Shown piece by piece: positions 9,886-48,072 of a stretch of 64,000 nucleotides of DNA. A program made the position numbers and the translations under genes. The stretch comes from Candidatus Angelobacter sp. Gp1-AA117. GTDB taxonomy: Bacteria > Acidobacteriota > Terriglobia > Terriglobales > Acidobacteriaceae. The stretch's first letter is position 1. Each line of letters starts with the position of its first letter. Under the pieces are notes generated by a model. It was not told the origin of the DNA and did no database searches. It saw only the letters and a list, made by a program, of their open reading frames with translations. The stretch is taken from assembly GCA_003223515.1 (NCBI GenBank), contig QHVI01000013.1:1-64000 (forward strand). The letters run 5' to 3'.

Positions 9886-9893
9886 GTTATTTC

Positions 9894-10541: not shown

Positions 10542-10554
10542 ATAAGTACTCCAA

Positions 10555-23770: not shown

Positions 23771-26365
23771 TTATGAGTTCTGTTCGGCCAGGTCCCAAGC
23801 CACCATACGGAGTTCACTGGTATAGCGGTGTCCCTGACTATCAGACAGCCAAACCTCATCTGGGGTGGGAAGCATTTCAGTCAGTGTGACTTTTCCTTCC
23901 TTGCTATCGCTGGCTAGCATGCGCCGGACCATCTTGATGAAGATCTCCATATAAATGGGACTCTCGAAATCAAGATAGAAAGGCTTTACCTCTGTTCGGA
24001 CACGCACGAAAACGAAGCGCGGCAAGCGATGACGATGCATCCAGCGCCGCACCGCGAGAAAACGTTCGTGTTCTGCTTCCAGGCTGATGAAGTCCAGTTC
24101 GCTTACCGGGAAAGTCCATGATTCGCGGACTATGACCAGCTTGTCGATAGTGATGCGCGGCACATGCGGCTGAGGACTGATGATTTTCATCAACTCAATC
24201 GTTGCCCCGGAAAAGAACTCTCCGAAAAATTCGATGACGTCGAATTGCAGGCTTCCGTCCCAGCTTCGTACGATCAGACCTTCCGGGGATTGCTCCACCG
24301 CAAGAGCCCCGATTGGAATCACCCGTGACCGCGGCTTATCGGCGACCGGGTTGCTCGATATTTCCACGTAATAATCATGAGGAGACACCAGTGCCAGGGA
24401 AGTGCGATTGGTAATGCGGGGCCAGTGCCGGGGCGGAACGGGCACTACACGGGATTGGGGAAGATCAGTCTGGAAAGCCTCGAATAGCTCTTCAGGGTTG
24501 TCATGCTGAGAAACGTCAAAGGAGAAGCGCAGGGTGTTTTCCCCCATGTGCACTTCACCAAGCACAAACATGTAATCACCGCGACGGACTGCTTCCACGC
24601 TGGAAGCGGCGATCATTACGTCAGGGCTGTGATAACGTGCAAGCTGCCAGCCGGCTCCGGAGATCGCGAAGGAATTTTCCACCAGCGGTTTGAGCATGGC
24701 ACTTGTGTACTCCACCTTCTGCTTCTCCCATGGTACCTGCAGAATCGTTTCCCAGCGGCTCTGAAATTCCGGAACGATATCATTGAATAGCCTCTTTACC
24801 GGATCAAAAATCAGCGGTTCGACCCTGGCAGAGAACTGCAGCATATCTACTTTCCGGGTCTGGTTCTTGTGCGTGAGTTCTTCATAAATCTCGCGGAACC
24901 TTTCGCGGAAGGCAGCGGCAGCTTGATAACTGAACCAGCGCGCGCTGTTCAACAGAAGAGCGAGAGGAGCACCGAGTCTTGCCAGAACTTCCGGACCAAT
25001 CTCCACCTGCACGTCCCTCTGGCAGTCCTGATAGACCAGAGTACGCGAGGCATACATTGATCCAGCAGATTTGGTGGCCGGACGATTGGTCAGTCGAGTG
25101 AAGGTAGCGTCGAGTTCTTCGAGCGCCTGATCGAGTTGCTGCGGGTCGCCGAGCGAACGGCTGATCTTTTCCCGTCCGCACTCCAGTTGCTGCAATTCAT
25201 CTAAGAGCGGGCGGCGTAGCTCTTCTCTCTCGATCTTCTGCAGCAGTTCTCGCAATTTCTGCTCCGGTCGCAAACAATACGGAAGTTCCAGCGCCCAGGA
25301 GATGATGCCGCGCGCGGCGTAAACCTGCAGGATTCCATAGACCTGTCCTTCCGTACGCATTCCATACTCGGAAAACGCAATTACCGCCTGCGCGATTTCC
25401 CTGGCAGTGGACTCTCCAGTGCATCTTTCCAGAATAGCCGCATGGACAGCCGAGAGCTGAGAGACCGGCGCTGAGGAATACAGCATGCCAGCTTCAATAC
25501 GGAAGAAGGGCAGCAGGCGAGGCGCAAACCAAGGCCGCAGTGACTTGATGCCGGAGATCTTCTCGGCGAGGGTTTCAATACACCAGTTTTCAAAGAAGAC
25601 TGAAGATTTTGCTACTAAATCAGGTCCCGTGCAGACGGTTAATGGGGATTGGCTGCTGACCAGTCTGGCCCAGCCGACCGGGCCGAAGAAACCGATGGTA
25701 TCGTTTTTCAGGCAATAGCGCTGAAGATAATTGGCAACCATCTCTTCTTTCTGTCTCAGGTCTGAATTGCGCAGCTTGTCGGAGGATTTCCTCAGCAAAG
25801 GATCAAGGGCGGTGTGAATGGCGGTCCGGTTCTGCCACATCACCGCTTCGCGAAAACGGGGAGAGACTGCGAATTCGCGAGTAATCTTCGAGGTGAGGGC
25901 CGAAGCGGCAGCAAACTTTTGCTGAAAAATACCGCGTGACTCGCGGAGCTTTTCGAGCGTCTCACAAAAATACTCGATGATCTTCGGACCGTTGATTTCC
26001 GGCAATCGTTTCGGCGCTTCGCCGGATTTGATTCGATCCCGGGCTTTCAACAATGGGAGTCGGCGGGTTTTATCGTTCCACTGGTTCTGCTCACGCAAAG
26101 CATCAAGCGCGGCGTTCACCTGGGCGAGCGCATTTTGTTGCGCCATCGAGGCAGCGCTCTCCGCTTCCAGAACAGCATCTGAAGCATCTATGATTTCCCT
26201 GGGAGCGGAAAGTTGCTGGGGCAGATCAAAAGGAAAACCGGCACCCCGCAGGCATATCCATCGCCAGAGCGCCCATGGTTCTCCAGGTATTTTTACGAGA
26301 TGCTGCGGCAATGCATCGGTAATATCTATTGCCAGGCTGGCATGCTGCCCGGTGGCAGGGTTCAT
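23771..26365 (-). CDS. LanB-like dehydratase N-domain protein (copy 1)
   Basis: The 864-residue protein belongs to the lantibiotic dehydratase N-terminal (Lant_dehydr_N) family. Supporting segments are LVKIPGEPWALWRWICLRGA near the start, RYCLKNDTIGFFGPVGWARL around residue 215, a long helical middle, and the C-terminal RLPRFVFVRVRTEVKPFYLD followed by LTEMLPTPDEVWL. Full-length LanB enzymes are about 1000 residues with a separate elimination domain. That domain is missing here, as in split LanB glutamylation subunits and peptide aminoacyl-tRNA ligases. It would then use a charged tRNA to aminoacylate a peptide or carrier. The ATG at 26363-26365 has AAAGGA upstream, 16 bases after the NRPS stop. 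It closely resembles the 863-residue copy at 31785-34376. The function here is unproven. Confidence 0.82.
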   Translation of the reverse strand: MNPATGQHASLAIDITDALPQHLVKIPGEPWALWRWICLRGAGFPFDLPQQLSAPREIIDASDAVLEAESAASMAQQNALAQVNAALDALREQNQWNDKTRRLPLLKARDRIKSGEAPKRLPEINGPKIIEYFCETLEKLRESRGIFQQKFAAASALTSKITREFAVSPRFREAVMWQNRTAIHTALDPLLRKSSDKLRNSDLRQKEEMVANYLQRYCLKNDTIGFFGPVGWARLVSSQSPLTVCTGPDLVAKSSVFFENWCIETLAEKISGIKSLRPWFAPRLLPFFRIEAGMLYSSAPVSQLSAVHAAILERCTGESTAREIAQAVIAFSEYGMRTEGQVYGILQVYAARGIISWALELPYCLRPEQKLRELLQKIEREELRRPLLDELQQLECGREKISRSLGDPQQLDQALEELDATFTRLTNRPATKSAGSMYASRTLVYQDCQRDVQVEIGPEVLARLGAPLALLLNSARWFSYQAAAAFRERFREIYEELTHKNQTRKVDMLQFSARVEPLIFDPVKRLFNDIVPEFQSRWETILQVPWEKQKVEYTSAMLKPLVENSFAISGAGWQLARYHSPDVMIAASSVEAVRRGDYMFVLGEVHMGENTLRFSFDVSQHDNPEELFEAFQTDLPQSRVVPVPPRHWPRITNRTSLALVSPHDYYVEISSNPVADKPRSRVIPIGALAVEQSPEGLIVRSWDGSLQFDVIEFFGEFFSGATIELMKIISPQPHVPRITIDKLVIVRESWTFPVSELDFISLEAEHERFLAVRRWMHRHRLPRFVFVRVRTEVKPFYLDFESPIYMEIFIKMVRRMLASDSKEGKVTLTEMLPTPDEVWLSDSQGHRYTSELRMVAWDLAEQNS

Positions 26366-26381
26366 AAAAGTCCTTTTATGG

Positions 26382-29300
26382 TCAGGCTGATTGAGCGTGA
26401 GCTTCTTTTCGCATTTCGACAAATCGCGCCAGGGAGGCGATTGTAGGTTCCTGGAAGAACAGGGCGAGTAATGGCATATCGCTTGGATACTCCTGCTGAA
26501 TCTGGGTGATCAGCCTGGTAGCCTGGAGGGAATCGCCTCCCAGCGAAAAGAAATTGTCGTGAATGCCGATGGGTTGAACGCGCAGCGCATTCGTCCAGAG
26601 GTTGACGAGATACTGCTCCAGAGCTGATCGGGGCGGCGCGATATCATCGCGCTCGAGTTCTGCGACCTCAGGAACGGGCAGTGCGGAGTAATCTTTTTTC
26701 CCGTGAGCATTCACCGGGATACTGGGAACAGATACGACAATGGCGGGCAGCATATAGTCGGGAAGGGTCTGCGCAAGCAGTTGACGATAGTGGTTTGATG
26801 CCTTGTTTTCTGTCGAAGCAATGTAACCGACCAGTTGCTTACTCCCGGTCGGCAAATTCATAGGAACAACTGCTGCATCCTGTACGCCGGGCAGGCAACG
26901 CAGAGCAGCTTCGATTTCGCCCGGCTCAATACGGAAACCGCGAACCTTTATCTGACGGTCTGCTCGTCCGATAAAATAAATGCTGCCATTCGCCAGCCAG
27001 CGTGCACGATCACCGGTACTGTACATGCGTGAACCTGCTACAGTGCTCAATGAATCGGGCAAAAATCTTTCAGCGGTCAGGTCCGGCCGGTTCAAATATC
27101 CTCTGCCCACGCTGTGCCCTCCGATGAAGATTTCACCGGGTGCACCCACTGGCACTGGCTCAAGGTGCGGATCGAGAATGTACACATTTGTTCCAGCCAG
27201 AGGCTTGCCGATGGAAGGACTGGAGTGCGGGCCAATGACGCACGAAGTAGCATCTACCGTGCATTCTGTGGGGCCATACACGTTATGGCATAGCTTCGAC
27301 TTGCGCGCGCCAAGCAGCTCCCACACGTGTTCCGGAACCGGCTCTCCGCCCAGCAGAAGACTGGTGGAATCCGCAGCTTCTCCCAATCCTGCTTTCAAGA
27401 GCAGTTGCACTTGGGTGGGTGTGCAATCGAGAACATCGAGATGCTTTGCCTGCATGTAAGCCAACAGCGCCTGGCCATTACGGCGGATTTCCTCCGGGAT
27501 AAGGCACAAACAATGTCCCATAGCCAGCGTGATGAGCTGTTTCATGGAGGAATCGAAGGTAAACGGAGCATTCAGTCCCACTGTTAAATGGCGATCCTGC
27601 GCCGCATAAACCGCTTCGCTCAAGCCTGCAATGAGATTATTCAGACAGCGGTGCTCAATCATCACGCCTTTGGGAGTGCCCGTTGATCCGGATGTATGAA
27701 TCACGTAAGCGAGATTGCACCGGTCGAGAGGAAGATTGAGATTGCTGTCACTTTCCCCGGCAATTACGTCCAGGTCAAGATCGAGCAGCACCACGGGCGG
27801 CAACTGCTCCGGCAAACGGTCAAGCAGTTGCTCATGAGTGATAAAGGCCTGCAAAGGCGTGCGTTTCATCAGCGCGTTAAGGCGGGCTTGTGGATCACGC
27901 GTATCCAGTGGCACGTAGACTCCGCCGCACTTCCATATGCCGAGCACCGCTGCAATGAATTCGGCCGAGCGCTCCAGACAGATGCCGACCAGGCCCTCGG
28001 GCTTTATATCGAGCGTCTGGAGATAGCGCGCGAACTGGTTGGCATGCGCATTGAGCTGGGCAAAGGTCATTTGTCTTTCGCCGGCAATCAAAGCAATCGC
28101 TGAAGGATCAGCTTCCACCTGTATTTCAAACAATTCGTGAACCAGATTCTCTCCGGAAGATTGAGAATGACCTCCCATGCTGTATTGCAGCAACACCTGG
28201 TCGCGTTCAGCCGGAGCCATTAAAGGCAATGCCGAGAGTGGCTGCCGGCAATCCTCTGTGATGGCCGCCAGCAACACGGAAAGCTGGCCAGCCACACGCT
28301 GGATCGTAGTCCGGTCGAACAGATCAGTGCTGTATTTGAGAGAGCCCAGCAGATCTGCTCCGCTTGAACTCATGAGAAGGGTGAGGTCGAATTGCGATCC
28401 ATGATTATCAAGCGGAACCAATTCGGCCAGTGCACCGGCAAAACGGAGTGGTTTCCGCGCATCGCCAATGGAGGCGGCTGAGAGAGCTTCACCTTCACTT
28501 CCGGGCAGCTCCTGCCAGACAAACATAGCCTGGAAAATCGGGGAAATTCCGCCTTCGCGTTTCGGATGCAAATCCTCTACGAGCAGTGGAAAAGGATAAT
28601 CCTGATGCCTGAGAGCCTGGAGCGCCGTCTGCCTTACCTGTGCCAGGTAGGCACTGAATGAGAGCGATCCTTCGTAGTAGGAGCGCAATACAATGGGATT
28701 TACAAAATACCCAACCACCCCGGCGAACTCTGGCTCGTTACGGCCATTGTTGGGTGATCCGAGCAGTACATCGTCTTGTCCGGAAATGCGGTGTAAGAGG
28801 ACCTGGAATGCGCCGGCCAGCAGCATGAAGGGCGTGACATTTTCGCGACGGGCAATGACTTGAATCTTGTGGTAGAGATCCGGCTGCAAGTAAACACTTT
28901 CAGAGGCTCCGCGATAGGAAAATAGAGGTAGACGCGGACGGTCTGCCGGAAGCTGGAGCACGGGAAGATCGCCGGACAACTGTGTGCGCCAATAATTAAG
29001 GAGGGACTCACCTTCAGGCCCGTCAACTTTCCCAGATTGCCAGGAAATGAAATCCAGATAGCTGAAATTGAGTTCCGGCAACACCGCAGCCTGTCCATTG
29101 CAGTGCGCCAGATACGCCGCACTGATTTCCTGCAGAAGAATTGCGATAGACCACAAATCGGCAATGATATGGTGCAGCAGCAGCATGAGCACGTCTTCAC
29201 CCGTGGGAAGACCGAAGACGAGAAGCCGGATGGGAGGCGCCTGTTCCAGAAGAAATGGTTGTTGCACCTCTGCTGCCAGGAGGTCGCGCAGGCGGCTGGC

Positions 29301-31682
29301 TTCAGTTACCGTAAGATCAACGCGCCGCACGTGCTGAGCGGGGTTGATATCTTTCATGAATTGAACCCGTTGCGCGGGTTCACCCTTTTCCCCGGAGAAA
29401 ACTACGCGCAACATTCCATGACGCTCGATGATTTGCAGGAATGCCTTTTCCAGCGCAGAAAAATCCAATCTTCCCTGGACGCGAATAGCACTCGCCAGGG
29501 TATAAGCTACCGAGTTGGGCGCAATCTTGTGGAGAATCCACAGCCCCTTCTGCCCGTGTGAGAGCGGCCAGGTTTCGAACTTTGCTGAATTCACCGAACA
29601 GTGCCGTGTTTTTTCCATGCCAAGTTGATCCACAATCATCGCAGCCACGCCGCTAAGGGAGAGGCCTTCAAGCAGACTGGCAATATCAATTTGAACTCCC
29701 ATTTCCGTGGCGATGCGGCTGGCGAGTTCGCTGGCGCCAACGGAATCAAGACCAACGCCGATGAGAGGCTGCTCTGAATTGATTTCAAAGGGACTGACCT
29801 GTGCGATACGCGCAACCTCTTCCCGCAAATGAGATTCAAGCAGTTCCAACCGCAGTCCTGGCTCTGTCTGTAGCAGGCCAGTTCCGGTTAAACATTCATC
29901 GGGAGATGCTGGCTCCAGGCCTGTTAGCGGCAGAGTGCTGCTGGCCAGCACTTCCATCTCTTCTGCAAGCAAGGCGGCCCGGCAGGTGGCACGCTTAATT
30001 TTTCCGCTGGTTGTTTTGGGAATGCTTCCAGGCTTCAGCAGCGCCACGGTGTAGACCTGAATGCCATGCTCCAGGAGCACCGCTTTCCGAATCTCTGCAA
30101 AGAGCATTTCCGGCGGCACCTCAGAGTGGCGCTCAATTTCGTTGATGACCGCCAGTACCTCCTGGCCATTGACTTCGATAGCGAAGGCTGCTCCAGCACC
30201 AAAACGCAAACTGGAGTGGCATTGCTGTACCGTTAGTTCGATATCGTGTGGATAGAGATTACGGCCATGGAGAATAATCAGATCCTTCAGACGACCAGTG
30301 ATGAAAAGCTGCTGGCCGGCGGAAAAACCTAAATCCCCGGTCCGAAGAAAACGAGTTTCATTGTCAGAGGAGAGTCGCGCATGAAATGTAGCGGTTGTTT
30401 CTTCCAGCCGGTTCCAATATCCTTTCGCCACGCTGGGACTGCTGATCCAGATTTCTCCAACATGTTCTTTCCTGCATTCCTGAAGTGTCTGAGGATCGAC
30501 AATCCTAAGCTGCTGGCCGGGGATTGCTGTACCGCATCCTGCAAGAACCCGCGCTGGTTCATTGCCTGAAGCTTCCCGAACGGTGTTTTGCTCCAATGCC
30601 TCACTGGAAATGCGCATCAGCATTGACTGGCCGGCAGGGCGGCCTCCAGTGACCATAAGCGTAGATTCAGCCAGACCATAGGAGGGATGAAAAGCTTCGG
30701 CGCGAAATCCGCATTCGCTGAAAGCAGCGGCAAAGCACTCCATTGTCTCAGGCCGTACGGGTTCAGCTCCGTTCACAGCCACGCGCCAGCTTGAGAGATC
30801 CAGCCGTGCTTTTTCGGCCAGTGAAGTCTTGCGCGCGCAGAGCTCATAGGCAAAATTGGGCGCACTGCTGCTATGTGCCCGGTATTCGGAAATGGCCTGC
30901 AACCAGCGCGAAGGTTTCTGCAGAAACGCGGTGGGGGCCATCAGTACGCACCGGGCTCCCTGATGAAGCGGGTGGAGCACAGTCCCGATCAAACCCATGT
31001 CGTGATACAGCGGCAGCCACGTAACCACGGTGGAATCTTCACCTGTATTGCAGGCAGCCTGGATGACCGTCATGTTGTGCAGCAGGTTCTCGTGAGAAAT
31101 CATTACTCCTTTGGGCGACGAGGTAGAACCGGAGGTGTATTGCAGGAATGCAATTGTTTCTTTTTCTATAGAAGGTTTGCACCATTCGTCCGCAAGTGAT
31201 GAATCGATGGACTGCACATTGAGCCAGTTCATAGCCGAAACCCGCGAATCGTTTTCAGCCCGGGGCAATCTGGCGATCATTTCAGGTGAAGCAAAGGCCA
31301 CCTGCGGCTCAGCATCGGCGACGACGGCTCGAAACCAAGCCTGGCCTCTGCGCGAACCTTCGAAGTGAACTGGAAACGCGGGAACAGCAATGATACCGGC
31401 GTATAGACATCCCCAGAAAGCAGTGATGAATTCAATCCCTGAGGGCAGCAGCAGGATCGCCCTTTGCCCCTGCATTTCCTGCTGCTGCAGGAAAGCAGCA
31501 ATGGCGCGTGCGCGGCGATCCAGTTCCGCGAAGGTAATACTCTCGCTTTCCCGTTCACCATTTTCCAGGAATGTAATTGCCGTCCGCGAAGGATGATGTT
31601 CAGCATGACTGCGCAGCACATCGATGAATGTGGTCCAGGAACCAACTCGAGCTACTGGGGAATCAAGAGCATGGGATTTCAA
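26382..31682 (-). CDS. Lipopeptide-initiating NRPS: FAAL-ACP-C-A-T
   Basis: The 1766-residue protein starts with a fatty acyl-AMP ligase (residues 1 to about 590) showing LQYTSGSTSSPKGVMISHEN and WLPLYHDMGLIGTVLHPL. A carrier domain follows (GVGLDSVGASEL, near 650), then a condensation domain with intact HHIIADLWS (near 845), an adenylation domain with YVIHTSGSTGTPKGVMIEH (near 1300) and a carrier domain with FFSLGGDSLQATRL (near 1720). It should activate a fatty acid and join it to one amino acid. Pocket residues read by hand (D-S-K-D-L-G-V-V-D plus K) resemble glutamate codes. The start is TTG at 31680-31682 with a strong GGGAGGA six bases upstream. There is no epimerase or thioesterase. 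It lies between the two LanB-like genes. Confidence 0.92.
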   Translation of the reverse strand: MKSHALDSPVARVGSWTTFIDVLRSHAEHHPSRTAITFLENGERESESITFAELDRRARAIAAFLQQQEMQGQRAILLLPSGIEFITAFWGCLYAGIIAVPAFPVHFEGSRRGQAWFRAVVADAEPQVAFASPEMIARLPRAENDSRVSAMNWLNVQSIDSSLADEWCKPSIEKETIAFLQYTSGSTSSPKGVMISHENLLHNMTVIQAACNTGEDSTVVTWLPLYHDMGLIGTVLHPLHQGARCVLMAPTAFLQKPSRWLQAISEYRAHSSSAPNFAYELCARKTSLAEKARLDLSSWRVAVNGAEPVRPETMECFAAAFSECGFRAEAFHPSYGLAESTLMVTGGRPAGQSMLMRISSEALEQNTVREASGNEPARVLAGCGTAIPGQQLRIVDPQTLQECRKEHVGEIWISSPSVAKGYWNRLEETTATFHARLSSDNETRFLRTGDLGFSAGQQLFITGRLKDLIILHGRNLYPHDIELTVQQCHSSLRFGAGAAFAIEVNGQEVLAVINEIERHSEVPPEMLFAEIRKAVLLEHGIQVYTVALLKPGSIPKTTSGKIKRATCRAALLAEEMEVLASSTLPLTGLEPASPDECLTGTGLLQTEPGLRLELLESHLREEVARIAQVSPFEINSEQPLIGVGLDSVGASELASRIATEMGVQIDIASLLEGLSLSGVAAMIVDQLGMEKTRHCSVNSAKFETWPLSHGQKGLWILHKIAPNSVAYTLASAIRVQGRLDFSALEKAFLQIIERHGMLRVVFSGEKGEPAQRVQFMKDINPAQHVRRVDLTVTEASRLRDLLAAEVQQPFLLEQAPPIRLLVFGLPTGEDVLMLLLHHIIADLWSIAILLQEISAAYLAHCNGQAAVLPELNFSYLDFISWQSGKVDGPEGESLLNYWRTQLSGDLPVLQLPADRPRLPLFSYRGASESVYLQPDLYHKIQVIARRENVTPFMLLAGAFQVLLHRISGQDDVLLGSPNNGRNEPEFAGVVGYFVNPIVLRSYYEGSLSFSAYLAQVRQTALQALRHQDYPFPLLVEDLHPKREGGISPIFQAMFVWQELPGSEGEALSAASIGDARKPLRFAGALAELVPLDNHGSQFDLTLLMSSSGADLLGSLKYSTDLFDRTTIQRVAGQLSVLLAAITEDCRQPLSALPLMAPAERDQVLLQYSMGGHSQSSGENLVHELFEIQVEADPSAIALIAGERQMTFAQLNAHANQFARYLQTLDIKPEGLVGICLERSAEFIAAVLGIWKCGGVYVPLDTRDPQARLNALMKRTPLQAFITHEQLLDRLPEQLPPVVLLDLDLDVIAGESDSNLNLPLDRCNLAYVIHTSGSTGTPKGVMIEHRCLNNLIAGLSEAVYAAQDRHLTVGLNAPFTFDSSMKQLITLAMGHCLCLIPEEIRRNGQALLAYMQAKHLDVLDCTPTQVQLLLKAGLGEAADSTSLLLGGEPVPEHVWELLGARKSKLCHNVYGPTECTVDATSCVIGPHSSPSIGKPLAGTNVYILDPHLEPVPVGAPGEIFIGGHSVGRGYLNRPDLTAERFLPDSLSTVAGSRMYSTGDRARWLANGSIYFIGRADRQIKVRGFRIEPGEIEAALRCLPGVQDAAVVPMNLPTGSKQLVGYIASTENKASNHYRQLLAQTLPDYMLPAIVVSVPSIPVNAHGKKDYSALPVPEVAELERDDIAPPRSALEQYLVNLWTNALRVQPIGIHDNFFSLGGDSLQATRLITQIQQEYPSDMPLLALFFQEPTIASLARFVEMRKEAHAQSA

Positions 31683-31784
31683 GGAGTCCTCCCGAAAATG
31701 GAATCAGTAGTGCTTCTCAAATAATGAAGAAGGTTTTTAGGAATTACACGAACTGCGAATCCGCGCAGTTCAACTGGAGAGACC

Positions 31785-34376
31785 TCAATTTGCGAGATCC
31801 CAGGCCACGATGCGAAATTCGCTGGTGTAGGTGCGTCCATCCACGTCCGGCAGCCACACCTGTTCCGGAGTGGGAAGCATTTCGGTGAGTGTAACTCTTC
31901 CTTCTGTGCTGTCGCTGGACAGCATTCTGCGCACCATCTTGATGAAGATTTCGACATAAACAGGGCTGTCGAAATCGAGATAAAAAGGTTTTACTTCAAC
32001 GCGGACACGAACAAACACGAACCGCGGCAAATTGTTGCGGCGCATCCAGCGTCTCACTGCGAGAAAACGCTCATGTTCGGTTTCCGGATGAACGAAACCC
32101 AGCTCACTTACCAGGAAAGACCATGATTCGCGAGCCACAACCAGCTTGTCGATGGTGATGCGGGGTACGTGCGGCCGGGGGCGAACGATCTTTATCATTT
32201 CAATAGCCGCATGCGAAAGAAGTTCTGAGACAAATTCGATCACATCAAACTTCAGCCTTCCGTCCCAGCTTCTTACGGCCAGGGTCTCTCCGGAATGCTC
32301 CACTGCAAACCCCGCGATCGAGACCACGCGGGACCTTGGAGCATTCGCAACGGGCGCGCTGGATACTTCGAGATAGTAATCTTGCGGGGATGTCAAGGCC
32401 GGAGAAGTACGATTTGTGACCCTGGGCCAATGCCGTGGAGGAACCGGTACGGCACGGGCGTCCGGCAGATCGGCTTGAAATGCTTCGAATAGCTCTTCAG
32501 GCCTGTCGTGCTGGGAAGCGGCGAAGGAGAAGCGCAGCGTGTTTTCGGCCATGTGTACTTCACCCAGCACGAACATGTAATCACCACGACGAATTCCCTC
32601 AACGCTGGAGGCGGCGATCATTACATCGGGGCTCTGGTATCTGGCAAACTGCCAGCCAGCGCTGGGGGCAGCAAAGGAATTCTTTATCAGCGGTTTCAAA
32701 ATGGCGCTGGCATATTCCATCCGCTGCTTGTCCCAGTCAACGCCCAGAATGGCTTCCCATCGGCTTTGGAATTCCGGTGCTACCTGATTGAACAGCTTCT
32801 GCACCGGATCGAAGATCAGTGGCTCGATCCTGGCCCAGAACTGCAGCAGGTCCACTCTGGGACTGTTATTCTTCTGCGCGAGTTCTTCATATATCTCGTG
32901 GAATCTGTTGCGATAGGCGGTCGCTGCCTGATAGCTGAACCAGCGTGCGCTGTTGAGCAGCAGTGACAGCGGCGCGCCCAGAGATGCAACCAACTCCGCG
33001 CCAATCTCCACCTGCACGTTACGCCGGCAATCCTGGTAGACCAACGTACGGGAAGCATACATAGCTCCGGCAGATTTCATGGCTGAGCGGTTGGTCAGCC
33101 GTGTGAAGGTGTCGTCCAACTCTGAAAGCGCGTTCTCCAGTAATTCGGGGTGGCCGGCCGCGCGACAGACCTTTTCCCTGATATTTTCAAGTTGCTGTAG
33201 CTCCTTCAGCCATGGCTGGCGCAACTCTTCTCTTTCAATTTTCTCCAGCAGTTCCTGCAATTTCTGCTCTGGATGCAGACAATAAGGAAGTTCCAGGGCC
33301 CAGGAGATAATTCCGCGGGCGGCATAGGCCTGCAGGATGCCATAGACCTGCCCTTCAGTGCGCAGGCCGTATTGAGATATGGCAATCACCTTCTGGGCAA
33401 TCTCCCTGGCGGTAGACTCTCCATTGCAACATTCGAGAATAGCGGCGTGAACCGCTGATAAATGGGAGACTGGCCCAGAGGAGTAAAGCACGCCTGTTTC
33501 CAGGCGGAAGAAGGGCAGCAGGCGGGGCACGAACCAGGGCCGCAGTGACTTGATAGCAGAGATTTTTTCGGCCAAGGCCTCAATGCACCAGTTTTCAAAG
33601 TAGACGGAAGATTTTGATAACAGAGCAGGGCCGGGACGGACTGACAGAGGGTCTTTACTATCAACTAGTTTTGCCCAGCCTACCGGGCCGAAGAAGCCAA
33701 TCGTGTCATTCTTCAAGCAATACCGCTGGAGATAACTGGCGATGAGTTCTTCATTCTGCCTCTCCTTGAAGCCGCGTTTTGCCGGCACATCCTGCCGGGC
33801 TGCAAACGCTGCCATAACACGGCGCAGCGCAGCGCGATTCTGGAGAAGAACGGCCTGGCGGAATTCAGAATCAGCAGCGATTCTTCTGATCTTTGCTGAT
33901 AATTCCAGCCTCTCCATTTGGAATTGGCCGATGAACTGTACCTTTGCTTCTTCTATCCGGGCAAAGAGCATGGCAAGTTCCTGCGTGATGCTATCGGCTG
34001 CAGTCCCCGTTGGTTCCGGAGCTTTTCCCTTGTTCAGTTGTTTGAGGGCGCGCTGAAGAGATTTTCTGTGTGCCTGGTCAGTGGTGTTATCCAGCAGAAG
34101 CCGAAGTGCAGCAATGTTTTTGTTGATCTTGTCAGTGCCCCCCTGCTCCAATAAAAACAGGTGATTTGTGGCCGCTACGATTGCAGGAGTGGCCAGTTGT
34201 TGCGGTAGATCGAAAGGAAATCCGGCGCTGCGCAGGCAGATCGATCGCCAGAATGCCCACTGTTCACCTGGTATTTTGACCAGGTGCGGCGGCAGCGAAC
34301 CAGTCGCTGAAACCACCGCTGCCTCTTGTGTGACAGCAGAGTTCATGAAGGAAGCCATTGCCCGTGGAGAGTTCAT
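31785..34376 (-). CDS. LanB-like dehydratase N-domain protein (copy 2)
   Basis: The 863-residue paralog of the protein at 23771-26365 has the same motifs in the same order: LVKIPGEQWAFWRSICLRSA, RYCLKNDTIGFFGPVGWAKL, SAGAMYASRTLVYQDCRRNV, SPDVMIAASSVEGIRRGDYM and LTEMLPTPEQVWL. The two proteins differ mostly in the N-terminal 60-200 residues, where copy 2 has a longer helical stretch. It also lacks the C-terminal elimination domain. It lies 102 bases before the FAAL-NRPS gene. Two such genes suggest two separate aminoacyl transfers or a heterodimer. In-frame ATGs at 34376, 34358 and 34346 are all possible starts and none has a clear ribosome site. No precursor peptide gene was seen beside it. 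Confidence 0.82.
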   Translation of the reverse strand: MNSPRAMASFMNSAVTQEAAVVSATGSLPPHLVKIPGEQWAFWRSICLRSAGFPFDLPQQLATPAIVAATNHLFLLEQGGTDKINKNIAALRLLLDNTTDQAHRKSLQRALKQLNKGKAPEPTGTAADSITQELAMLFARIEEAKVQFIGQFQMERLELSAKIRRIAADSEFRQAVLLQNRAALRRVMAAFAARQDVPAKRGFKERQNEELIASYLQRYCLKNDTIGFFGPVGWAKLVDSKDPLSVRPGPALLSKSSVYFENWCIEALAEKISAIKSLRPWFVPRLLPFFRLETGVLYSSGPVSHLSAVHAAILECCNGESTAREIAQKVIAISQYGLRTEGQVYGILQAYAARGIISWALELPYCLHPEQKLQELLEKIEREELRQPWLKELQQLENIREKVCRAAGHPELLENALSELDDTFTRLTNRSAMKSAGAMYASRTLVYQDCRRNVQVEIGAELVASLGAPLSLLLNSARWFSYQAATAYRNRFHEIYEELAQKNNSPRVDLLQFWARIEPLIFDPVQKLFNQVAPEFQSRWEAILGVDWDKQRMEYASAILKPLIKNSFAAPSAGWQFARYQSPDVMIAASSVEGIRRGDYMFVLGEVHMAENTLRFSFAASQHDRPEELFEAFQADLPDARAVPVPPRHWPRVTNRTSPALTSPQDYYLEVSSAPVANAPRSRVVSIAGFAVEHSGETLAVRSWDGRLKFDVIEFVSELLSHAAIEMIKIVRPRPHVPRITIDKLVVARESWSFLVSELGFVHPETEHERFLAVRRWMRRNNLPRFVFVRVRVEVKPFYLDFDSPVYVEIFIKMVRRMLSSDSTEGRVTLTEMLPTPEQVWLPDVDGRTYTSEFRIVAWDLAN

Positions 34377-34533: not shown

Positions 34534-36984
34534 TTATTCATAGCGCAGCACCACCAGCGGGTCCACTCGTGTGGCGCGCAGCGCAGGAATGTAGCTGGCC
34601 AGCAGGCCAACCGAAGCCAGAGCCACACAAGCAATCAGGTAACACAATGGAGCGCGGGACGGCACTTCATAAAGCAGGGCTGCGACAAAACCGCCCAGCG
34701 CCAAAGCGCCGGCTATTCCTATACTCACTCCCGCGAGTACCAGCTTGATGCCACGTTCCATTACCAGCCATAATACGTCTTTACGGGTGGCGCCCAACGC
34801 CTGGCGAACGCCAATCTCGTGTAAGCGCTGGACCACCACATAGGCTATGACGCCGTACAAGCCCACAGCAGTGAGAAACAGAGCAATTCCGGCAAAAATA
34901 GTTAACAGGATTGTCTGAAAACGGGCGAGACCCAGGTCCAGCGCCAAGTGATCCTCCATGCTGCGCGCGTTATACAAAGCGGTCGCTGGATCCATTCCGG
35001 AGAGGACTTTGCGTACCTCAGAAGCGAGATTGCCGGAATCAGTGGACGTCCTTATCACCAGCGTTGGCGGTCCTGCCATGAGCTGGGGCAGCGGAAGATA
35101 ATAAGAAGGTGTGGGCGCGGCCCGAAGATTGCTTCTCCGGATATCACCAACTACGCCGACTATCTCTCGTGTCCTGTAGTTCTCGCGTCCAGCCTCAGCT
35201 ATCTCGACTGTGATGCGTTTGCCGATAGGATTTTCGTCAGGGAAGTACTTCCTGGCGAACTCCTGGGTGATGATCGCAACCGGGAGTGAGTCGCGCCGGT
35301 CGCGTTGGTCGAAGGTCCTGCCGCTAATGAGCGGAATCTGCATCGTTTCGAAATATCCCGAAGCAACCAGATAGAACCCGGAAGTGGGTTGGTTTTGTTT
35401 GGGTGCAGGATGGTCCACCAGGTCGAAAGTGGAAGCGTACACATCGTTATACAGCGGAAGAGGGCGTGTGCCGGACGCCGAAACCACACCGGGCAATACC
35501 CGCAAGCGGTTGAAAAGCTCTCCAACAAAGCGGTCTGCCTGGTCGTGGGTATACCGAGTTTCAGACAGATCAAATCTGGCGGTCAACAGGCCGGTAGGAT
35601 TGAATCCCAGGTTCGCATGGGAGAGGCGCTGGAAGCTACGTACCAGAAGACCTGCAACGATCACCAGCATGACACCTAGCGCAGTTTCAGCAACGACCAG
35701 GGTGGAACGAAGCCGGTGCTGGCCCGGCCCCGCAGTACTGGTCCTGCCGCCCTCACGCATGTTTTCCGTCAAATCGGGTTTGGAGACATGCAACGCGGGC
35801 GCCAGACCAAAAAGGATGCCGGTCAGCAGGGCGATAGCAGTTGTAAAAAGCAGGACACGCAGGTCTATCCCAATGTCTTGAGCACGTGGCAAGTTGCTGG
35901 GATAAAGGTGGAGGAATCCGGAGAGAGCCCCATAGGCCACACCAATTCCCGCCGCTGCCCCGATAAGCGCAAGCACGAGAGATTCCGTGACAAGCTGGCG
36001 GACAATCCGAGAACGGCTCGCTCCTATCGCCAGGCGCAAAGCGATCTCACGAGCCCGTCCGGTGCTGCGGGCCAACAGCAGATTGGCCACATTGGCGCAG
36101 GCAATCAAAAGCACCAGGCTCACGGCTGCGAACAAAATCATCAAGGGAGTACGCGTATCACCCACGATGAATTCGAGCTCCGGCCGGACAGCAATACTCA
36201 TAGAGCTGTTGGAATCCGGATATTCCCCTGCCAAAGCGCGTGCAATGGACGCCATTTCAGCATTTGCCCGTTCCTGTGTAACCCCGGGCCGCAGACGGGC
36301 AATTGCGCCCAGATGATGGTTGTCGCGCTGCCTTGCCGGTGGGTATTTCTTTTGCTGTTCAAGGTAGTGGGCGAATGTGAACCACAAATCAATGGGTTCA
36401 GCACGGACAGGGAATTGGAAGCCCTGAGGCATCACGCCGACAATGGAAACAGCCACGCCATTCAGGTTGACTGTTTTTCCAAGAACATCACGACCAGCAT
36501 TGAAATGAGAGCGCCAGAAACGATCGCTCAGAACAGCCACATATGGTCCGGCCAGATCTTCATTGTCAGTGAAACCGCGTCCCAGGGAGGGACTCACCCC
36601 CAACAGGTCGAACAGGCTCGCAGATACAGTTTCGACCTGTACATGGGCTGCCCGCGGACCTTCAGTCATGGTGAGGCTGCTGCTGTAAAACGCAGCGGCC
36701 TGAAGAGTGCGGCTGCGCGCGCGCACATCTTCGAAATCAGGATAGGAGAAGGTTCCTCCGGAGGGAGCAGGGGCGCCATACCTGGGATCAGACTCGCTCA
36801 CGTCCACCAATTGCTGCGGATCATGAAATGGCAGTGGCCGCAGTAATACTGCATTCACTACGCTGAACATCGCAGTAGTCGCCCCAATCCCGACCGCCAG
36901 AGTAATGATGGCAACGGCGGTGAAACCTCCAGCATGGAGCAAGCTACGGATGGCATAGCGAACTTCTCGTACGAAGGTTTCCAC
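34534..36984 (-). CDS. ADOP-type MacB/FtsX ABC permease
   Basis: The 816-residue permease has the family opening VREVRYAIRSLLHAGGF with TLAVGIGATTAMFSVVNAVL in the first helix. A MacB-like periplasmic domain and an FtsX core of three helices (around residues 285-410) follow. A second periplasmic domain and C-terminal FtsX helices ending VDPLVVLRYE complete it. These fused permeases (ADOP, Acidobacteria-duplicated orphan permease) are highly multiplied in Acidobacteriota and usually lack an adjacent ATPase, as here. They probably export or sense peptides or antibiotics; a role in self-resistance is inferred. I chose the GTG at 36982-36984 because GGGAGGA lies five bases upstream; the longer frame to 37026 runs into a repeated sequence. 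Confidence 0.88.
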   Translation of the reverse strand: METFVREVRYAIRSLLHAGGFTAVAIITLAVGIGATTAMFSVVNAVLLRPLPFHDPQQLVDVSESDPRYGAPAPSGGTFSYPDFEDVRARSRTLQAAAFYSSSLTMTEGPRAAHVQVETVSASLFDLLGVSPSLGRGFTDNEDLAGPYVAVLSDRFWRSHFNAGRDVLGKTVNLNGVAVSIVGVMPQGFQFPVRAEPIDLWFTFAHYLEQQKKYPPARQRDNHHLGAIARLRPGVTQERANAEMASIARALAGEYPDSNSSMSIAVRPELEFIVGDTRTPLMILFAAVSLVLLIACANVANLLLARSTGRAREIALRLAIGASRSRIVRQLVTESLVLALIGAAAGIGVAYGALSGFLHLYPSNLPRAQDIGIDLRVLLFTTAIALLTGILFGLAPALHVSKPDLTENMREGGRTSTAGPGQHRLRSTLVVAETALGVMLVIVAGLLVRSFQRLSHANLGFNPTGLLTARFDLSETRYTHDQADRFVGELFNRLRVLPGVVSASGTRPLPLYNDVYASTFDLVDHPAPKQNQPTSGFYLVASGYFETMQIPLISGRTFDQRDRRDSLPVAIITQEFARKYFPDENPIGKRITVEIAEAGRENYRTREIVGVVGDIRRSNLRAAPTPSYYLPLPQLMAGPPTLVIRTSTDSGNLASEVRKVLSGMDPATALYNARSMEDHLALDLGLARFQTILLTIFAGIALFLTAVGLYGVIAYVVVQRLHEIGVRQALGATRKDVLWLVMERGIKLVLAGVSIGIAGALALGGFVAALLYEVPSRAPLCYLIACVALASVGLLASYIPALRATRVDPLVVLRYE

Positions 36985-36997
36985 GTTTCCTCCCAGG

Positions 36998-37073
36998 TTC
37001 CAGTAACGCCGGTGTAGATTGTACATGTGCCGGCAAGCGTCTGGTGTAGCTGTAACTAGAGTTGTTTCATAAA
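36998..37073. repeat. 76-bp repeat, copy A (upstream of the ADOP permease)
   Basis: This segment matches 39178-39252 with one indel and roughly 84 percent identity by eye. It begins TTCCAGTAACGC, contains AAGCGTCTGGTGT and ends AACTAGAGTTGTTTCATAAA. It lies just upstream of the ribosome site of the permease gene. A shared promoter or leader, or a recombination scar, would both fit. Confidence 0.75.
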
Positions 37074-37261: not shown

Positions 37262-39055
37262 TTACAGTGAACGCAGGAAGTTGAGAACATCCTGCTTTTG
37301 AGTCACGGTAAGGCTATTGAATTTAGAGACGACCGTGCAGGCCTCCGACGCCGACATCTGCTGGTCGCCGGACATGTCGCCAGCAGGGGCAATGCAGTGG
37401 TCCTTAATCGCCTGGACCAGGTTGTTATCCCGGCCATCGTGGAGAAAGAAGAGCCGCTGGCCAAGACCCCAGAGCGGCGCTGTTCGGAATTGGTCTCCGG
37501 CAGCTCGGCCCTGCTTCACGCCATCAGCGAGTCCGCCCATGTGGTGCAGCGCAAAGTCGGAGAAGGGATGGAACTCTGCGTTGTCCATGCTCGGAGTAGT
37601 AGATGGTCCTGTGTGCAGGGTTTGCGAATGGCAAAGGGCACAGCCAATATTCGGCATCCCCGATGTCGCTGGTGCACCGAGAATGGTGGTTCCGAATATA
37701 GCCGCTCCATCCAGCACAGTTGCGTCCACTTTATTACAGTTCGCAAATCCAGTCGTAGGGTTGACGTCGCTGTTGAAGTTACAGATTGCGGGAGCGGCGT
37801 TGAGGCGCATGAAGATCGCGAAGTTCTCGATATTGGTTGAGATCTTCGAGGTCACTCCCGGCTCGTCGGGCGATGGTTCTGACGTTGGAAGCGGGCCTGT
37901 GAGGGCTTCGATCTGGTTTCCGGTGAGGGACTGCGTCACGTCCTCTGGCAATTGGTTGACGTTGGTGCAATTGGGAAAGTTCCCGTATGTTCTCTCCGTG
38001 GGAAACATCTCATTGGTCACACCCATCTCCACATTGGAAGCCTCGCCAGAGAACGTGAGCAAAGACTTGATCTGCGCCTTCCATCCGAAACGGGTGATGG
38101 TTTGATCGTTTTCGCTGCGATTGAACACGCCAAATTTGATGTCTGTAATGCCCAAATTCGAGGCGAGGGTTTTTGCTGCGCCGGCGTTACTTTCCAGGAT
38201 AGGTTCTGGCACGTTCTCGACAAAGCCAACTCCGAAAGTTGGGGTGGGAATCCGGAATATAAGATTGTTGTTCTTCTCCTGAGTCTGAAAGTCCACCTGG
38301 CTGATGGCGCAACTTGAGGGGGCGTCCGTGCGTCCGGCAATGACAAAAAGTTGTGCCACAGCGCCGGGTGGCACAGCAGCGGCGTTGCCGTTGGCTGCAG
38401 CTCCCCTGGGGAAGCGCACCTCGACTAACGGGCCGGTTGCCTGCCGCTCCAGGAGGAAGTCGGGGATGGAATTGGTTGCATTTCTGTCTCTTGCAGCCAC
38501 GATCTGCGGGTTAGTTTCCGATGAGAACTTTACCCCCGTCGGGGACAACGAAGTACAGAAGGAACCAACGCAACCTGGGCTGCTGCCGCCAATGGCGGGC
38601 TGGGAGTGGCAATCGAAGCAGCTTAAGGCATTGAAGGACGGCCCAAGGCCCCTGATAAATTTACCTGCGGTCCCTGAATTATCTGTTCCGTTGACGCTGG
38701 CGGGCGTTTCGAAGACGCTCAGACCTTCGAACCACGTAGCCAACAGGTTGCCTGCGGTGGCCAAGTTAAGGGTGGCGCCAAAGACTTGACCAGCGCCGTC
38801 GGCAGGGGGTGCGGGTGCCACGGATCGAGGTTGCACAAAGTCTATACAAGGTGTCTCCGGAAACTTGGCTCCGACTACTGGACAATCCGCGAGAAGATCA
38901 GTGGCGAATTGCATTTTGCCAGTGGGCCGTACTCCTGGGTCAGTAACCGTCGCCGCCGTTGTTTGAGCCTGGAGCGCATTCACCAGGATTGCAAATGTCA
39001 ATAGCGCTATAGCAATACAAGCGCGTTGCAGAAAGCTGTTTTTTTTGCAAGACAT
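37262..39055 (-). CDS. DUF1111 di-heme c-type oxidoreductase, exported
   Basis: The 597-residue protein has a signal peptide (CIAIALLTFAILVNALQAQ). The family motif GLGPSFNALSCFDCHSQPAI carries a first CxxCH heme site near residue 145, and CALCHSQTLHTGPS carries a second near residue 475. The segment LWGLGQRLFFLHDGR with a late His is typical of DUF1111 'thiol oxidoreductase/di-heme' proteins related to MauG and cytochrome c peroxidases. It should act in the periplasm; the substrate is unknown. The ATG at 39053-39055 has GGGAG upstream; the longer frame to 39259 runs back through the repeated leader. Its presence inside an NRPS locus is unusual. Confidence 0.85.
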   Translation of the reverse strand: MSCKKNSFLQRACIAIALLTFAILVNALQAQTTAATVTDPGVRPTGKMQFATDLLADCPVVGAKFPETPCIDFVQPRSVAPAPPADGAGQVFGATLNLATAGNLLATWFEGLSVFETPASVNGTDNSGTAGKFIRGLGPSFNALSCFDCHSQPAIGGSSPGCVGSFCTSLSPTGVKFSSETNPQIVAARDRNATNSIPDFLLERQATGPLVEVRFPRGAAANGNAAAVPPGAVAQLFVIAGRTDAPSSCAISQVDFQTQEKNNNLIFRIPTPTFGVGFVENVPEPILESNAGAAKTLASNLGITDIKFGVFNRSENDQTITRFGWKAQIKSLLTFSGEASNVEMGVTNEMFPTERTYGNFPNCTNVNQLPEDVTQSLTGNQIEALTGPLPTSEPSPDEPGVTSKISTNIENFAIFMRLNAAPAICNFNSDVNPTTGFANCNKVDATVLDGAAIFGTTILGAPATSGMPNIGCALCHSQTLHTGPSTTPSMDNAEFHPFSDFALHHMGGLADGVKQGRAAGDQFRTAPLWGLGQRLFFLHDGRDNNLVQAIKDHCIAPAGDMSGDQQMSASEACTVVSKFNSLTVTQKQDVLNFLRSL

Positions 39056-39177
39056 GAAGTCTCCCTTTTTCGCAGTGCCCCTTTTTGGCACTTGTGGGTT
39101 TCTTGGACAGATTGGTTGGAGATAGAGAGGTGCAAACACCCACTGAAGGGTCGGGAGGCAGAGTGTTTGCTCCTGAG

Positions 39178-39252
39178 TTCCAGTAACGCTGGCGTAGATC
39201 TGCATGTGCACGTAAGCGTCTGGTGTGGCCGTAACTAGAGTTGTTTCATAAA
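39178..39252. repeat. 75-bp repeat, copy B (upstream of the DUF1111 gene)
   Basis: Partner of the repeat at 36998-37073 in the same orientation, ending with the same AACTAGAGTTGTTTCATAAA. It lies about 120 bases upstream of the DUF1111 start and just after the FkbH-like gene, so it could hold a promoter for a separate transcript. The distance between copies is about 2.2 kb and covers exactly the DUF1111 gene and its terminator. Confidence 0.75.
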
Positions 39253-39267
39253 CTGCCATAATCGGGC

Positions 39268-40344
39268 TTACTCATCTTTGTCCAACTCGACTTGCACGTA
39301 GTGAGGAAAGCAGCAGTCCGTCTGAAAGGTATTATCAAAAAGAATTGTTCCTTCCTCCCGCTGTATCTCTTTAAAGCCTGTCATTTTGTAGGTGATGAGC
39401 ATCATGCGGTTGCGGTCGGTAGGTTTAAACTCCGCAAACACCCGGCACCCGGCATCGCGGGCTTTTTGAAGAATATGATTGATCATGATTGTGCCGACTC
39501 CGCGTGCCATGACCCGGCAGGACATCAACAAGAGTTTTATGATCCAGGCTTCTCTGGTCATGTGTACCAGTGCCAGACCTATGGTGCCGTACGTCCCCCA
39601 TTTGTCTTCGAGGCTGGAGACGAGCAATAAATGGTCATCAGAGACACTTAGCTGGGCCAATTCGTCGTAGGAATAGGTTCGCCCGGTGGTATTGAGTTGA
39701 TGGGTTCGGACCGTGAGTTCTTCCGCGCGCTGCAGATCTGCTTCGCGGGCCCGGCGAATGGCAAACTTCATTTGCAATGACGCAAGGAATTCCTCCTGGG
39801 GACCTGCAAACTCCACCTCAGCCCGGTTTCGCGCTGCATCTGCGAGATACATTTTCCTGCGTTGCGCGCTCTCTTCTGTAATGAACCGGGGAGTAAATTC
39901 GGGCCGCTCGATAAGCCCATCCAACTCCGAGGCGTCGAGCGTGAGGACCTCAGGGAGAGAAGATTCCACTTCTTCTCTCTCGAAGTTTTGATCGTCAATG
40001 AATGCCACCGCGTCCATGCCTATATTCACCTGTTTTACGATGCCGGCAATGTTCGAAGACTTGGAGTTCCAGTTGATTTCCGGATAGATAAAGAACTCGT
40101 CAATGCCGAATTCGCGGAGCTTTGCCATGGCCAGATCATGCTCATTCCTGCTGGCGATAGAATTCAGTATTCCCCGGGAGTCCAGGACTTGAAGCACCTG
40201 TTGAACTTTGTCGCGCAGGCGGACCTTTTCATCTTCCAGGAGCGTTCCATGCCACACGGTTTCATCCAGATCCCAGATAAGAAGCTTTACTTTCTGTCGT
40301 GCCGCCACAGGGGCAGTGGGTGCGGCTACATCCGGCATTTGCAT
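39268..40344 (-). CDS. FkbH-like HAD-IIIC phosphatase/acyltransferase
   Basis: The 358-residue protein opens with the HAD motif LLIWDLDETVWHGTLL near residue 20 (nucleophile and acid/base Asp in DLDET). It continues with the FkbH-type SIASRNEHDLAMAKL and AVAFIDDQNFEREEV, then a GNAT-like C-terminal half. In FK520-type pathways this enzyme dephosphorylates 1,3-bisphosphoglycerate and loads a glyceryl unit onto a free ACP, the first step to hydroxy- or methoxymalonyl-ACP. It groups with a free ACP, an acyl-CoA dehydrogenase and a broken hydroxyacyl-CoA dehydrogenase. The ATG at 40342-40344 has GAGG upstream; the frame to 40410 overlaps the upstream gene. Confidence 0.9.
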   Translation of the reverse strand: MQMPDVAAPTAPVAARQKVKLLIWDLDETVWHGTLLEDEKVRLRDKVQQVLQVLDSRGILNSIASRNEHDLAMAKLREFGIDEFFIYPEINWNSKSSNIAGIVKQVNIGMDAVAFIDDQNFEREEVESSLPEVLTLDASELDGLIERPEFTPRFITEESAQRRKMYLADAARNRAEVEFAGPQEEFLASLQMKFAIRRAREADLQRAEELTVRTHQLNTTGRTYSYDELAQLSVSDDHLLLVSSLEDKWGTYGTIGLALVHMTREAWIIKLLLMSCRVMARGVGTIMINHILQKARDAGCRVFAEFKPTDRNRMMLITYKMTGFKEIQREEGTILFDNTFQTDCCFPHYVQVELDKDE

Positions 40345-40348
40345 AACC

Positions 40349-48062: not shown

Positions 48063-48072
48063 GCTTGCTCCT

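Follow-up and report, generated by a model that had tools for sequence, protein, structure and literature searches.

What would two LanB-like proteins do in a lipopeptide gene cluster that offers them no visible ribosomal peptide? The question is raised by the first 64,000 nucleotides of contig QHVI01000013.1 (assembly GCA_003223515.1) of Candidatus Angelobacter sp. Gp1-AA117, referred to here as the window, in which two paralogous genes, LanB1 and LanB2, stand on either side of a gene for a nonribosomal peptide synthetase (NRPS) that starts with a fatty-acyl-AMP ligase (FAAL) and continues with an acyl carrier protein (ACP) domain and a condensation, adenylation and thiolation (C-A-T) module. 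On balance, the explanation that we favour is that LanB1 and LanB2 are amide ligases of the peptide aminoacyl-tRNA ligase (PEARL) type, recruited into a lipopeptide pathway of NRPSs and polyketide synthases (PKSs).

Family and catalytic residues of the pair

The arrangement described in an original prediction, made from the letters of the window, agrees with the coordinates and the Pfam matches (Table 1): paralogs of 863 and 864 residues flank the FAAL-ACP-C-A-T gene, all three on the minus strand, with gaps of 102 bases between LanB1 and the NRPS gene and of 16 bases between the NRPS gene and LanB2. The NRPS gene has a TTG start preceded by GGAGGA, and the mechanical open reading frame (ORF) of LanB2 extends to a TTG at 26422, giving 883 residues as opposed to 864 from the ATG. 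The two proteins are 65-66% identical overall and match Lant_dehydr_N (PF04738) alone in Pfam, with E values of 2.6e-30 and 2.4e-35 (105.6 and 122.3 bits, cut-off 28); PF04738 is matched by all 12 members of our alignment A1. Their predicted membership of this family is thus sound, and so is the predicted lack of an elimination domain: PF14028 was found, fused or split, in neither LanB1 nor LanB2 nor any other of the 19 window proteins scanned (a subset of the window ORFs). The genome (6.48 Mb in 206 contigs, the window lying on one of 76.6 kb) encodes one further PF04738 protein, a full-length LanB of 1089 residues on another contig.

We examined 18 loci that encode full-length relatives: the window itself; G002, G003, G004 and G006 from the same genus; G171, G428, G397 and G106 from the same phylum; and, besides these, two contigs of the Acidobacteria metagenome-assembled genome (MAG) G484 (contig 60, or L018, and contig 9, or L078), the Rhodanobacter MAG G483 (L017), G697, and five Streptomyces plasmids (L019-L023) examined out of 15 matching plasmid records. 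NRPS C or A domains lie near the PEARL-like gene at 16 of the 18, the window included, the exceptions being G483 and G697.

Papers on PEARLs name as marks of the ATP site D542, E564, E801 and R803 of TglB and a conserved His that occupies the position of N283 of glutathione synthase; they also name R34, R197, Q201, Y205, R208, Y426 and R429 of BhaB7, and an adenine-contacting Arg/Phe pair common to PEARLs and TbtB (R743, F783) (PMC11962472, PMC11117183). Five of the BhaB7 residues, R197, Q201, Y205, R208 and R429, contact the 3'-CCA of the tRNA (PMC11962472). Placing the PEARL residues on LanB1 through motif spacing and conservation gave twelve positions (D584, E606, H608, E853, R855, R49, Y215, R218, Y440, R443, R749 and F788), each of them kept in both copies; a loss of key residues from both, which would have counted against the prediction, was not seen. 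They include the ATP-site set, as mapped by spacing (D584, E606-x-H608, E853-x-R855), and three of the five named CCA contacts (Y215, R218, R443); R197 and Q201 would fall on LanB1 Q207 and L211. The TglB spacings D542-22-E564 and E801-x-R803 are reproduced exactly (D584-22-E606, E853-x-R855), as is E-x-H. Across 22 PEARL-like rows, both window proteins among them, R49, R218, D584, E606, H608, R749, F788 and R855 are invariant, and the remainder are less strict (E853 in 21, R443 in 21, Y215 in 20 and Y440 in 18). The row that lacks an equivalent of E853 is that of L018, where the last ~50 residues of the PEARL (9941-12607) cannot be aligned with its relatives, likely through a frameshift in the MAG.

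The 1089-residue LanB of the same genome retains only R49, Y215, R218, Y440 and E853, with V, V, V, E and V at the positions of D584, E606, H608, E853 and R855 (16-20% identity, alignment less certain). Split LanBs carry Tyr and Leu in place of the PEARL ATP-site Asp and Arg (PMC11117183), both of which are retained in 22/22 PEARL-like rows. R743 and F783 of TbtB align to R749 and F788 in a HMMER alignment, with an inferred construct offset of 3. A profile search of the PDB gave an RRE/PqqD-like match downstream of the CCA helix (E 0.014); phmmer with LanB1 alone found nothing in the PDB at E 1, and none of the 12 A1 proteins gave a Pfam match to PqqD at E 5.

These residues mark both copies as PEARL-like, and neither appears dead. 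LanB1 and LanB2 are probably not dehydratases but amide ligases that depend on ATP and aminoacyl-tRNA, and we consider PEARL chemistry for the pair likely. Use of charged tRNAs, which had been predicted from the family, is still probable, but the residue pattern is that of a PEARL, an ATP-using amide ligase, and not that of a glutamylating LanB.

The mosaic N-terminal segment

Identity between LanB1 and LanB2 is 35/148 (24%) within LanB1 residues 57-205 and 485/643 (75%) from residue 221 on (Fisher p 1e-31). Where the residue is shared, the codon is identical at 10 of 35 positions in this segment as opposed to 237 of 463 in the body (p 0.013), the chance level from codon usage being 0.36-0.37; the segment therefore appears saturated and the body does not. 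A search with the LanB1 segment, itself aside, places L017 (E 6e-24) and L018 at the top and LanB2 seventh, and one with the LanB2 segment places G002 (2e-35), G484 contig 9, G428 and G171b at the top and LanB1 eleventh. LanB1 and LanB2 are sisters in the body tree (100/100); in the segment tree LanB1 joins L017 (96/88), and the LanB1-LanB2 pairing appears in 0% of bootstrap trees. The segment is also less similar than the body in the G171 pair (115/156 versus 579/644, p 6e-7), and its length is 54-83 residues in the Streptomyces proteins versus 136-153 in the non-Streptomyces PEARL rows (~60-70 shorter).

Exchange of the segment appears to fit these results best; rapid, one-sided divergence of LanB2 would fit less well, because the LanB2 segment is more closely related to segments outside the pair. 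In the protein, the segment lies ahead of the CCA-contact helix; low-confidence modelling places a bundle of helices at the anticodon loop (PMC11962472). The mosaic suggests a single chemistry with two choices of tRNA or acceptor, and we lean slightly towards a difference in specificity between the two copies. The basis on which PEARLs choose their aminoacyl-tRNAs has been called an outstanding question (PMC11117183), and the pair bears on it as something close to a natural chimera, a single catalytic body with two N-terminal segments.

Acceptor and donor

In the bracketed NRPS, Pfam recognises two AMP-binding stretches, a single condensation stretch and two PP-binding ones. A DIP2-like AMP domain above cut-off marks the first adenylation unit as FAAL-like, as do PDB matches across residues 13-581 to 7r7f and 3kxw, which we take to be FAAL structures; NCBIfam fatty-acyl-AMP ligase models match the protein strongly, yet under their curated cut-offs. 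In the ten-residue codes of A domains a Lys at position 239 is expected for Glu. Read in this way, other A domains have DVWHISLID., which is Ser-like (published DVWHLSLVDK), and DAWFLGHVVK, which is Leu-like (published DAWFLGNVVK), along with Gly- and Thr-like codes, and these results support the placement of the ten positions. Located through motifs, the code of the bracketed A domain, DSKDLGVVDK, matches at 8/10 positions DAQDLGVVDK, a published Glu/Gln code (PMC12283262). In vitro, the FAAL-led first two modules of PvdL join myristic acid to glutamic acid (PMC11855355), and an acyl-Glu would suit a PEARL because one carboxylate stays off the assembly line.

In threopeptin, the free carboxylate stems from a ureido-forming C domain with the motif EHHXXHDG, a source demonstrated for that compound only (PMC11212132). 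The C motifs found in the window read HHIIADLW, HHIVFDGW and HHIVSDGW, which rules out ureido chain reversal of the threopeptin type, and that route to a free carboxylate is therefore not at hand; lipo-Glu could furnish one without it. EHHXXHDG is likewise absent among the C motifs matched at related loci, where the two that start with EHH (both in G106) lack the second His. The C-terminal C domain of the NRPS at 42132-48080 (minus strand) reads NYMCLEG where HHxxxDG is expected.

Gene order, domain content, the kept residues, the link to NRPSs and the mosaic build of the pair are observed; from them we infer the chemistry, the acceptor and the donor amino acids as follows. The FAAL would load a fatty acid onto its ACP, and the C-A-T module would link the fatty acid to glutamate; in the resulting N-acyl-Glu, one carboxylate would not be tied to the assembly line. 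With ATP, each PEARL would phosphorylate this free Glu carboxylate, or the C-terminal acid of a later product; the amine of an aminoacyl-tRNA would attack the activated carboxylate and the tRNA would be hydrolysed off, for a gain of one amino acid. Using different aminoacyl-tRNAs or acceptor forms, the two copies would make two additions, and different donors or acceptors are probable because the catalytic body is common and the N-terminal segments differ. An NRPS-made acceptor in place of a ribosomal peptide, as had been predicted, is the likeliest reading, and we are fairly confident that it would be produced by the bracketed NRPS; that the Glu side chain is the acceptor site we propose tentatively. 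In the most elaborate form of this account, two PEARLs that differ chiefly in an exchangeable N-terminal segment would act on a lipo-glutamyl NRPS intermediate as a branching station supplied by tRNAs, placing different amino acids on the free carboxylate so that a single lipopeptide is extended in two directions, with the segment selecting the aminoacyl-tRNA or the acceptor; this we regard as speculative.

Several observations count against this account. Spacing and conservation, and not alignment to the TglB and BhaB7 sequences, served to place the PEARL positions, and the mapping is therefore indirect; the spacing used leaves the BhaB7 CCA contacts R197 and Q201 unmapped, BhaB7 itself has a D558-E575 spacing of 17 and not 22, and R218 does not discriminate because it is also found in LanBs. 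Forcing LanB1 and LanB2 together in the segment tree is rejected weakly by the approximately unbiased test (p-AU 0.042), the grouping having been picked after the identities were seen, and support for the group of LanB1, L017 and L018 segments is 73/72. L017, the best match of the LanB1 segment, is without an NRPS domain in 35 kb, its contig starting 3.3 kb upstream. The A code of the bracketed module depends on ten positions located via motifs. Finally, at the 16 loci with readable A-domain codes, acid- or amide-type codes are clear at four (the window, G171, G397 and G004), and a side-chain carboxylate is therefore no general requirement; a general rule that PEARLs adjoin acid-type A domains fails. 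Such codes are possible at three more: G106 (DTKDLALVDK), L021 (EVRHLALLAK, 8/10 with the published DPRHLALLAK for 'AMA', which we take to be alpha-aminoadipate) and G484 contig 60 (DARHFALLVK, 7/10). No acid- or amide-type code was read at G002, G428, G484 contig 9, G003, G006, L019, L020, L022 or L023. Some codes depend on the alignment (DPTGFGVIDK or DPWGFGVIDK in G428), and the L021 domain is just 23% identical to the template.

The strongest rival keeps the PEARL chemistry and makes the acceptor the C-terminal or other free carboxylate of a released NRPS/PKS product, the placement of the FAAL module being operon history. It draws on relatives that adjoin NRPSs without acid-type codes, such as G002, with Ser- and Ala-like codes, and on G484 contig 9, the one locus of the 18 besides the window that encodes a FAAL domain, as judged from the best BLAST match to the window's own. 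There, 2.3 kb separate the PEARL gene from a FAAL-C-A-T-C gene with DAWFLGHVVK, a Leu-like code, in its first A domain. PEARLs, moreover, elongate C-termini (PMC11117183). However, the module between the two window genes bears a Glu-like code, and, as Pfam showed no thioesterase in the 19 window proteins scanned, the route to a C-terminal acid is unclear; we consider this rival possible but unlikely.

It is improbable that the donor is an aminoacyl thioester bound to a carrier protein and not an aminoacyl-tRNA, with the LanB-like proteins acting on ACP or peptidyl carrier protein (PCP) partners. Two Streptomyces plasmids do have an A domain, a pyridoxal phosphate (PLP) enzyme and an ACP between two LanB-like genes, a third has ACP and A genes close to one LanB-like gene, and two of the five CCA contacts are unmapped in the window proteins. 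Yet R218 is present in 22/22 rows and R443 in 21/22, and the ATP-site set would be superfluous if the thioester were the activated partner.

The duplication had been taken to suggest two successive additions or a heterodimer; two enzymes with exchanged N-terminal segments would explain it better than an obligate heterodimer. A pair in which only one copy catalyses, with the other as its partner or scaffold and no second addition, agrees with the closeness and common direction of the paralogs, but all 12 positions are present in both, and a single copy is found at 14/18 loci; we give it little credence. Paired copies occur at four loci (the window, G171, L019 and L020), which the tree resolves as three separate duplications, although gene conversion could mimic a late duplication: G171a and G171b share 87% identity; in Streptomyces, the a copies and the b copies each group across two species, and a and b are 57-58% alike within a species.

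A pathway of ribosomally synthesised and post-translationally modified peptides (RiPPs), such as a pearlin pathway with an unseen carrier peptide, would follow the bha, amm and tgl PEARLs, which employ ribosomal carrier peptides (PMC11962472, PMC11117183). At 16 of the loci (all but G003 and G006), 599 small ORFs outside the large genes were compared. At E 0.01 there were 12 cross-locus pairs: carrier proteins in one, an MbtH look-alike in another (G171, G004), and short or arginine-rich matches in ten. Among these ORFs there was no conserved precursor or carrier peptide gene, in line with the original prediction for the window. An ordinary RiPP system is ruled out as far as this comparison reaches, and the pearlin alternative is very improbable. 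The least probable alternative, glutamylation of Ser or Thr on an NRPS product through an ester as in split LanBs, could appeal to the PF04738 family and to the Ser-type module within the cluster, but the Tyr and Leu of split LanBs (PMC11117183) are Asp and Arg in 22/22 rows and no PF14028 partner is present in the 19 proteins scanned.

Genomic surroundings and known systems

Table 1. Features of the trio and of the surrounding cluster (window coordinates)
Feature	Coordinates	Strand	Remarks
LanB1, PEARL-like aminoacyl-tRNA-dependent ligase (predicted)	31785..34376	-	863 aa; PF04738 only; all 12 tabulated positions present
LanB1 divergent N-terminal segment, residues 57-205	33762..34208	-	closest: L017, L018 segments
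FAAL-ACP-C-A-T NRPS, probable N-acyl-glutamate loader	26382..31682	-	1766 aa; domain matches; A code DSKDLGVVDK
A domain of FAAL-NRPS, residues 1185-1662	26697..28130	-	Glu/Gln-type ten-residue code
LanB2, PEARL-like ligase (predicted)	23771..26365	-	864 aa from ATG; PF04738 only; all 12 tabulated positions present
LanB2 counterpart of LanB1 57-205 (residues 67-222 of 883-aa ORF)	25757..26224	-	closest: G002, G484 contig 9
ADOP-family duplicated permease (MacB-like), upstream of LanB1	34534..37026	-	TIGR03434, 934.7 bits, above cut-off
Di-haem oxidoreductase-like protein (DHOR)	37262..39259	-	PF06537; pathway membership uncertain
FkbH-like protein	39268..40410	-	TIGR01686 above cut-off
Acyl-CoA dehydrogenase-like enzyme	40349..41494	-	PF00441/PF02771/PF02770
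Small free-standing ACP	41469..41759	-	ACP models, every one below cut-off
NRPS C-A-MT-T-C	42132..48080	-	A code Ser-like (DVWHISLID.); terminal C domain motif degenerate
PKS KS-AT-ACP	48073..51270	-	profile matches
NRPS C-A-T with N-terminal glycosyltransferase-like region	51427..55887	-	profile matches
MFS transporter	55884..57395	-	Pfam
M28-family peptidase, upstream end of cluster	57326..59104	-	Pfam

The trio is part of a larger same-strand NRPS/PKS cluster that comprises a glycosyltransferase-like/C-A-T protein, a ketosynthase-acyltransferase-ACP (KS-AT-ACP) protein, a C-A-MT-T-C protein (MT, methyltransferase), an ACP, an acyl-CoA dehydrogenase, FkbH and an ADOP-family permease. Similar permeases are also encoded in the stretches of G002, G004, G171 and G484 contig 9, and the M28 peptidase has BLAST matches in those of G002, G004 and G484 contig 60, the last to an ORF without any Pfam family. 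The first ~390 residues of the product at 51427-55887 (minus strand) form a glycosyltransferase-like region resembling the C-terminal part of EryCIII, fused to the C-A-T module. Between the C-A-MT-T-C and ACP genes lies a short ORF (41951-42088, minus strand) that seems to resemble the N-terminus of a 3-hydroxyacyl-CoA dehydrogenase (FkbK-like); as the rest of it was not seen, a hydroxymalonyl route may have decayed. Downstream of LanB2, a flavin-dependent oxidoreductase gene (21908-23521, minus strand), its N-terminal part in frame but severed by an in-frame stop, is a pseudogene or an assembly error. A tryptophan-halogenase-like protein (PF04820; 16071-17768, minus strand), 64% identical to one within the PEARL-NRPS locus of G428, may be a pathway member.

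Full-length relatives are scarce. They are present in 5/396 genomes of the phylum sample at E < 1e-100, the own genome included; at E 1e-3 any match is found in 26/396, those beyond the five being short and C-terminal. The class sample has full-length matches in 2/399 genomes at E 1e-20, and the class of G483 has them in 2/369, with any match in 6/369. A single-protein query matched 6 of 100 relatives at E 1e-3, one match being short.

Gene content beside the PEARL-like genes varies. The Rhodanobacter relative has an ATP-grasp protein on one side and a PLP decarboxylase on the other (L017 1802-7620). On G484 contig 9 (L078 3740-15411) a gene of the ornithine cyclodeaminase/mu-crystallin family and a Pfam-less ORF separate the PEARL and FAAL-NRPS genes, and the contig stops within the latter. 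After the tandem pair of G171 (L066 ~1092-11934) come genes for PALP, radical SAM and SbnB-type (TIGR03944 above cut-off) proteins, which suggest a supply of diaminopropionate. The PEARL-like gene of L021 (17981-27662) stands beside methylaspartate mutase, ACP, A-domain, ATP-grasp and C-domain genes. Genes like those for 2-oxoacid dehydrogenase E1 and E2 occur near the PEARL and NRPS genes at L018 6558-9891 and L069 6364-9607, with a lipoyl-synthase-like gene in one of the two. On two Streptomyces plasmids the row LanB-like, A domain, PLP enzyme, ACP, LanB-like spans L019 19980-27580 and L020 14623-22184.

These two plasmids resemble the window in that two PEARL-like genes bracket adenylation and carrier functions, and they differ from it in a separate duplication, with 57-58% identity between the copies, in a segment ~60-70 residues shorter, and in having free-standing A and ACP genes without a FAAL match. 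No PEARL is known to take part in the PvdL system. The first two modules of PvdL (pyoverdine; PMC11855355) share with the bracketed NRPS the order FAAL-ACP-C-A-PCP and, given the Glu-like A code of the window, a probable acyl-Glu product. The window proteins align with the split LanB TbtB (PDB 6EC7/6EC8) at the adenine-contacting Arg and Phe; unlike them, TbtB makes glutamyl esters and is described as lacking the PEARL ATP-site Asp and Arg (PMC11117183). They have in common with TglB, BhaB and AmmB the ATP-site residue set and, as mapped, most of the named tRNA-contact positions, BhaB7 R197 and Q201 having no window counterpart by spacing; these pearlin PEARLs, however, are reported to extend ribosomal carrier peptides, none of which was found among the small ORFs compared at 16 loci.

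The closest likeness is to threopeptin of Stackebrandtia nassauensis, in which gene deletion showed that the LanB-like SnaE adds Thr to an NRPS-PKS product; its dependence on ATP and Thr-tRNA, in forming an amide on a free carboxylate, was proposed through homology, and ~2,000 NRPS/PKS clusters with such LanB-like annotations were reported in the same paper (Yu and van der Donk 2024; PMC11212132). The remark in the original prediction that no described system with this arrangement was known was therefore too strong. A ribosomal carrier peptide is not needed in this NRPS-linked subgroup (PMC11212132). As with SnaE, the window proteins are LanB-like N-domain enzymes without a carrier peptide, encoded in an NRPS-PKS cluster with an acyl-CoA dehydrogenase, and no precursor peptide was found among the small ORFs compared, nor an elimination domain in the proteins scanned; unlike threopeptin, the window assembly line is started by a FAAL, has two paralogs and shows no ureido-type C motif. 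The 2024 finding of a PEARL-like enzyme serving an NRPS would thus be widened to an assembly line that is lipo-initiated and does without ureido chain reversal, with Glu suggested as an alternative source of the free carboxylate, and annotations as 'lantibiotic dehydratase' in lipopeptide clusters may hide residues that no adenylation domain predicts. Among the papers listed in a literature search, with most subscription papers outside its reach, none dealt with a FAAL-NRPS between two PEARL-like enzymes or with exchanged PEARL N-terminal segments. PEARL-like enzymes in NRPS/PKS clusters are thus known already; the paired FAAL-NRPS arrangement and the swapped front segment appear to be new.

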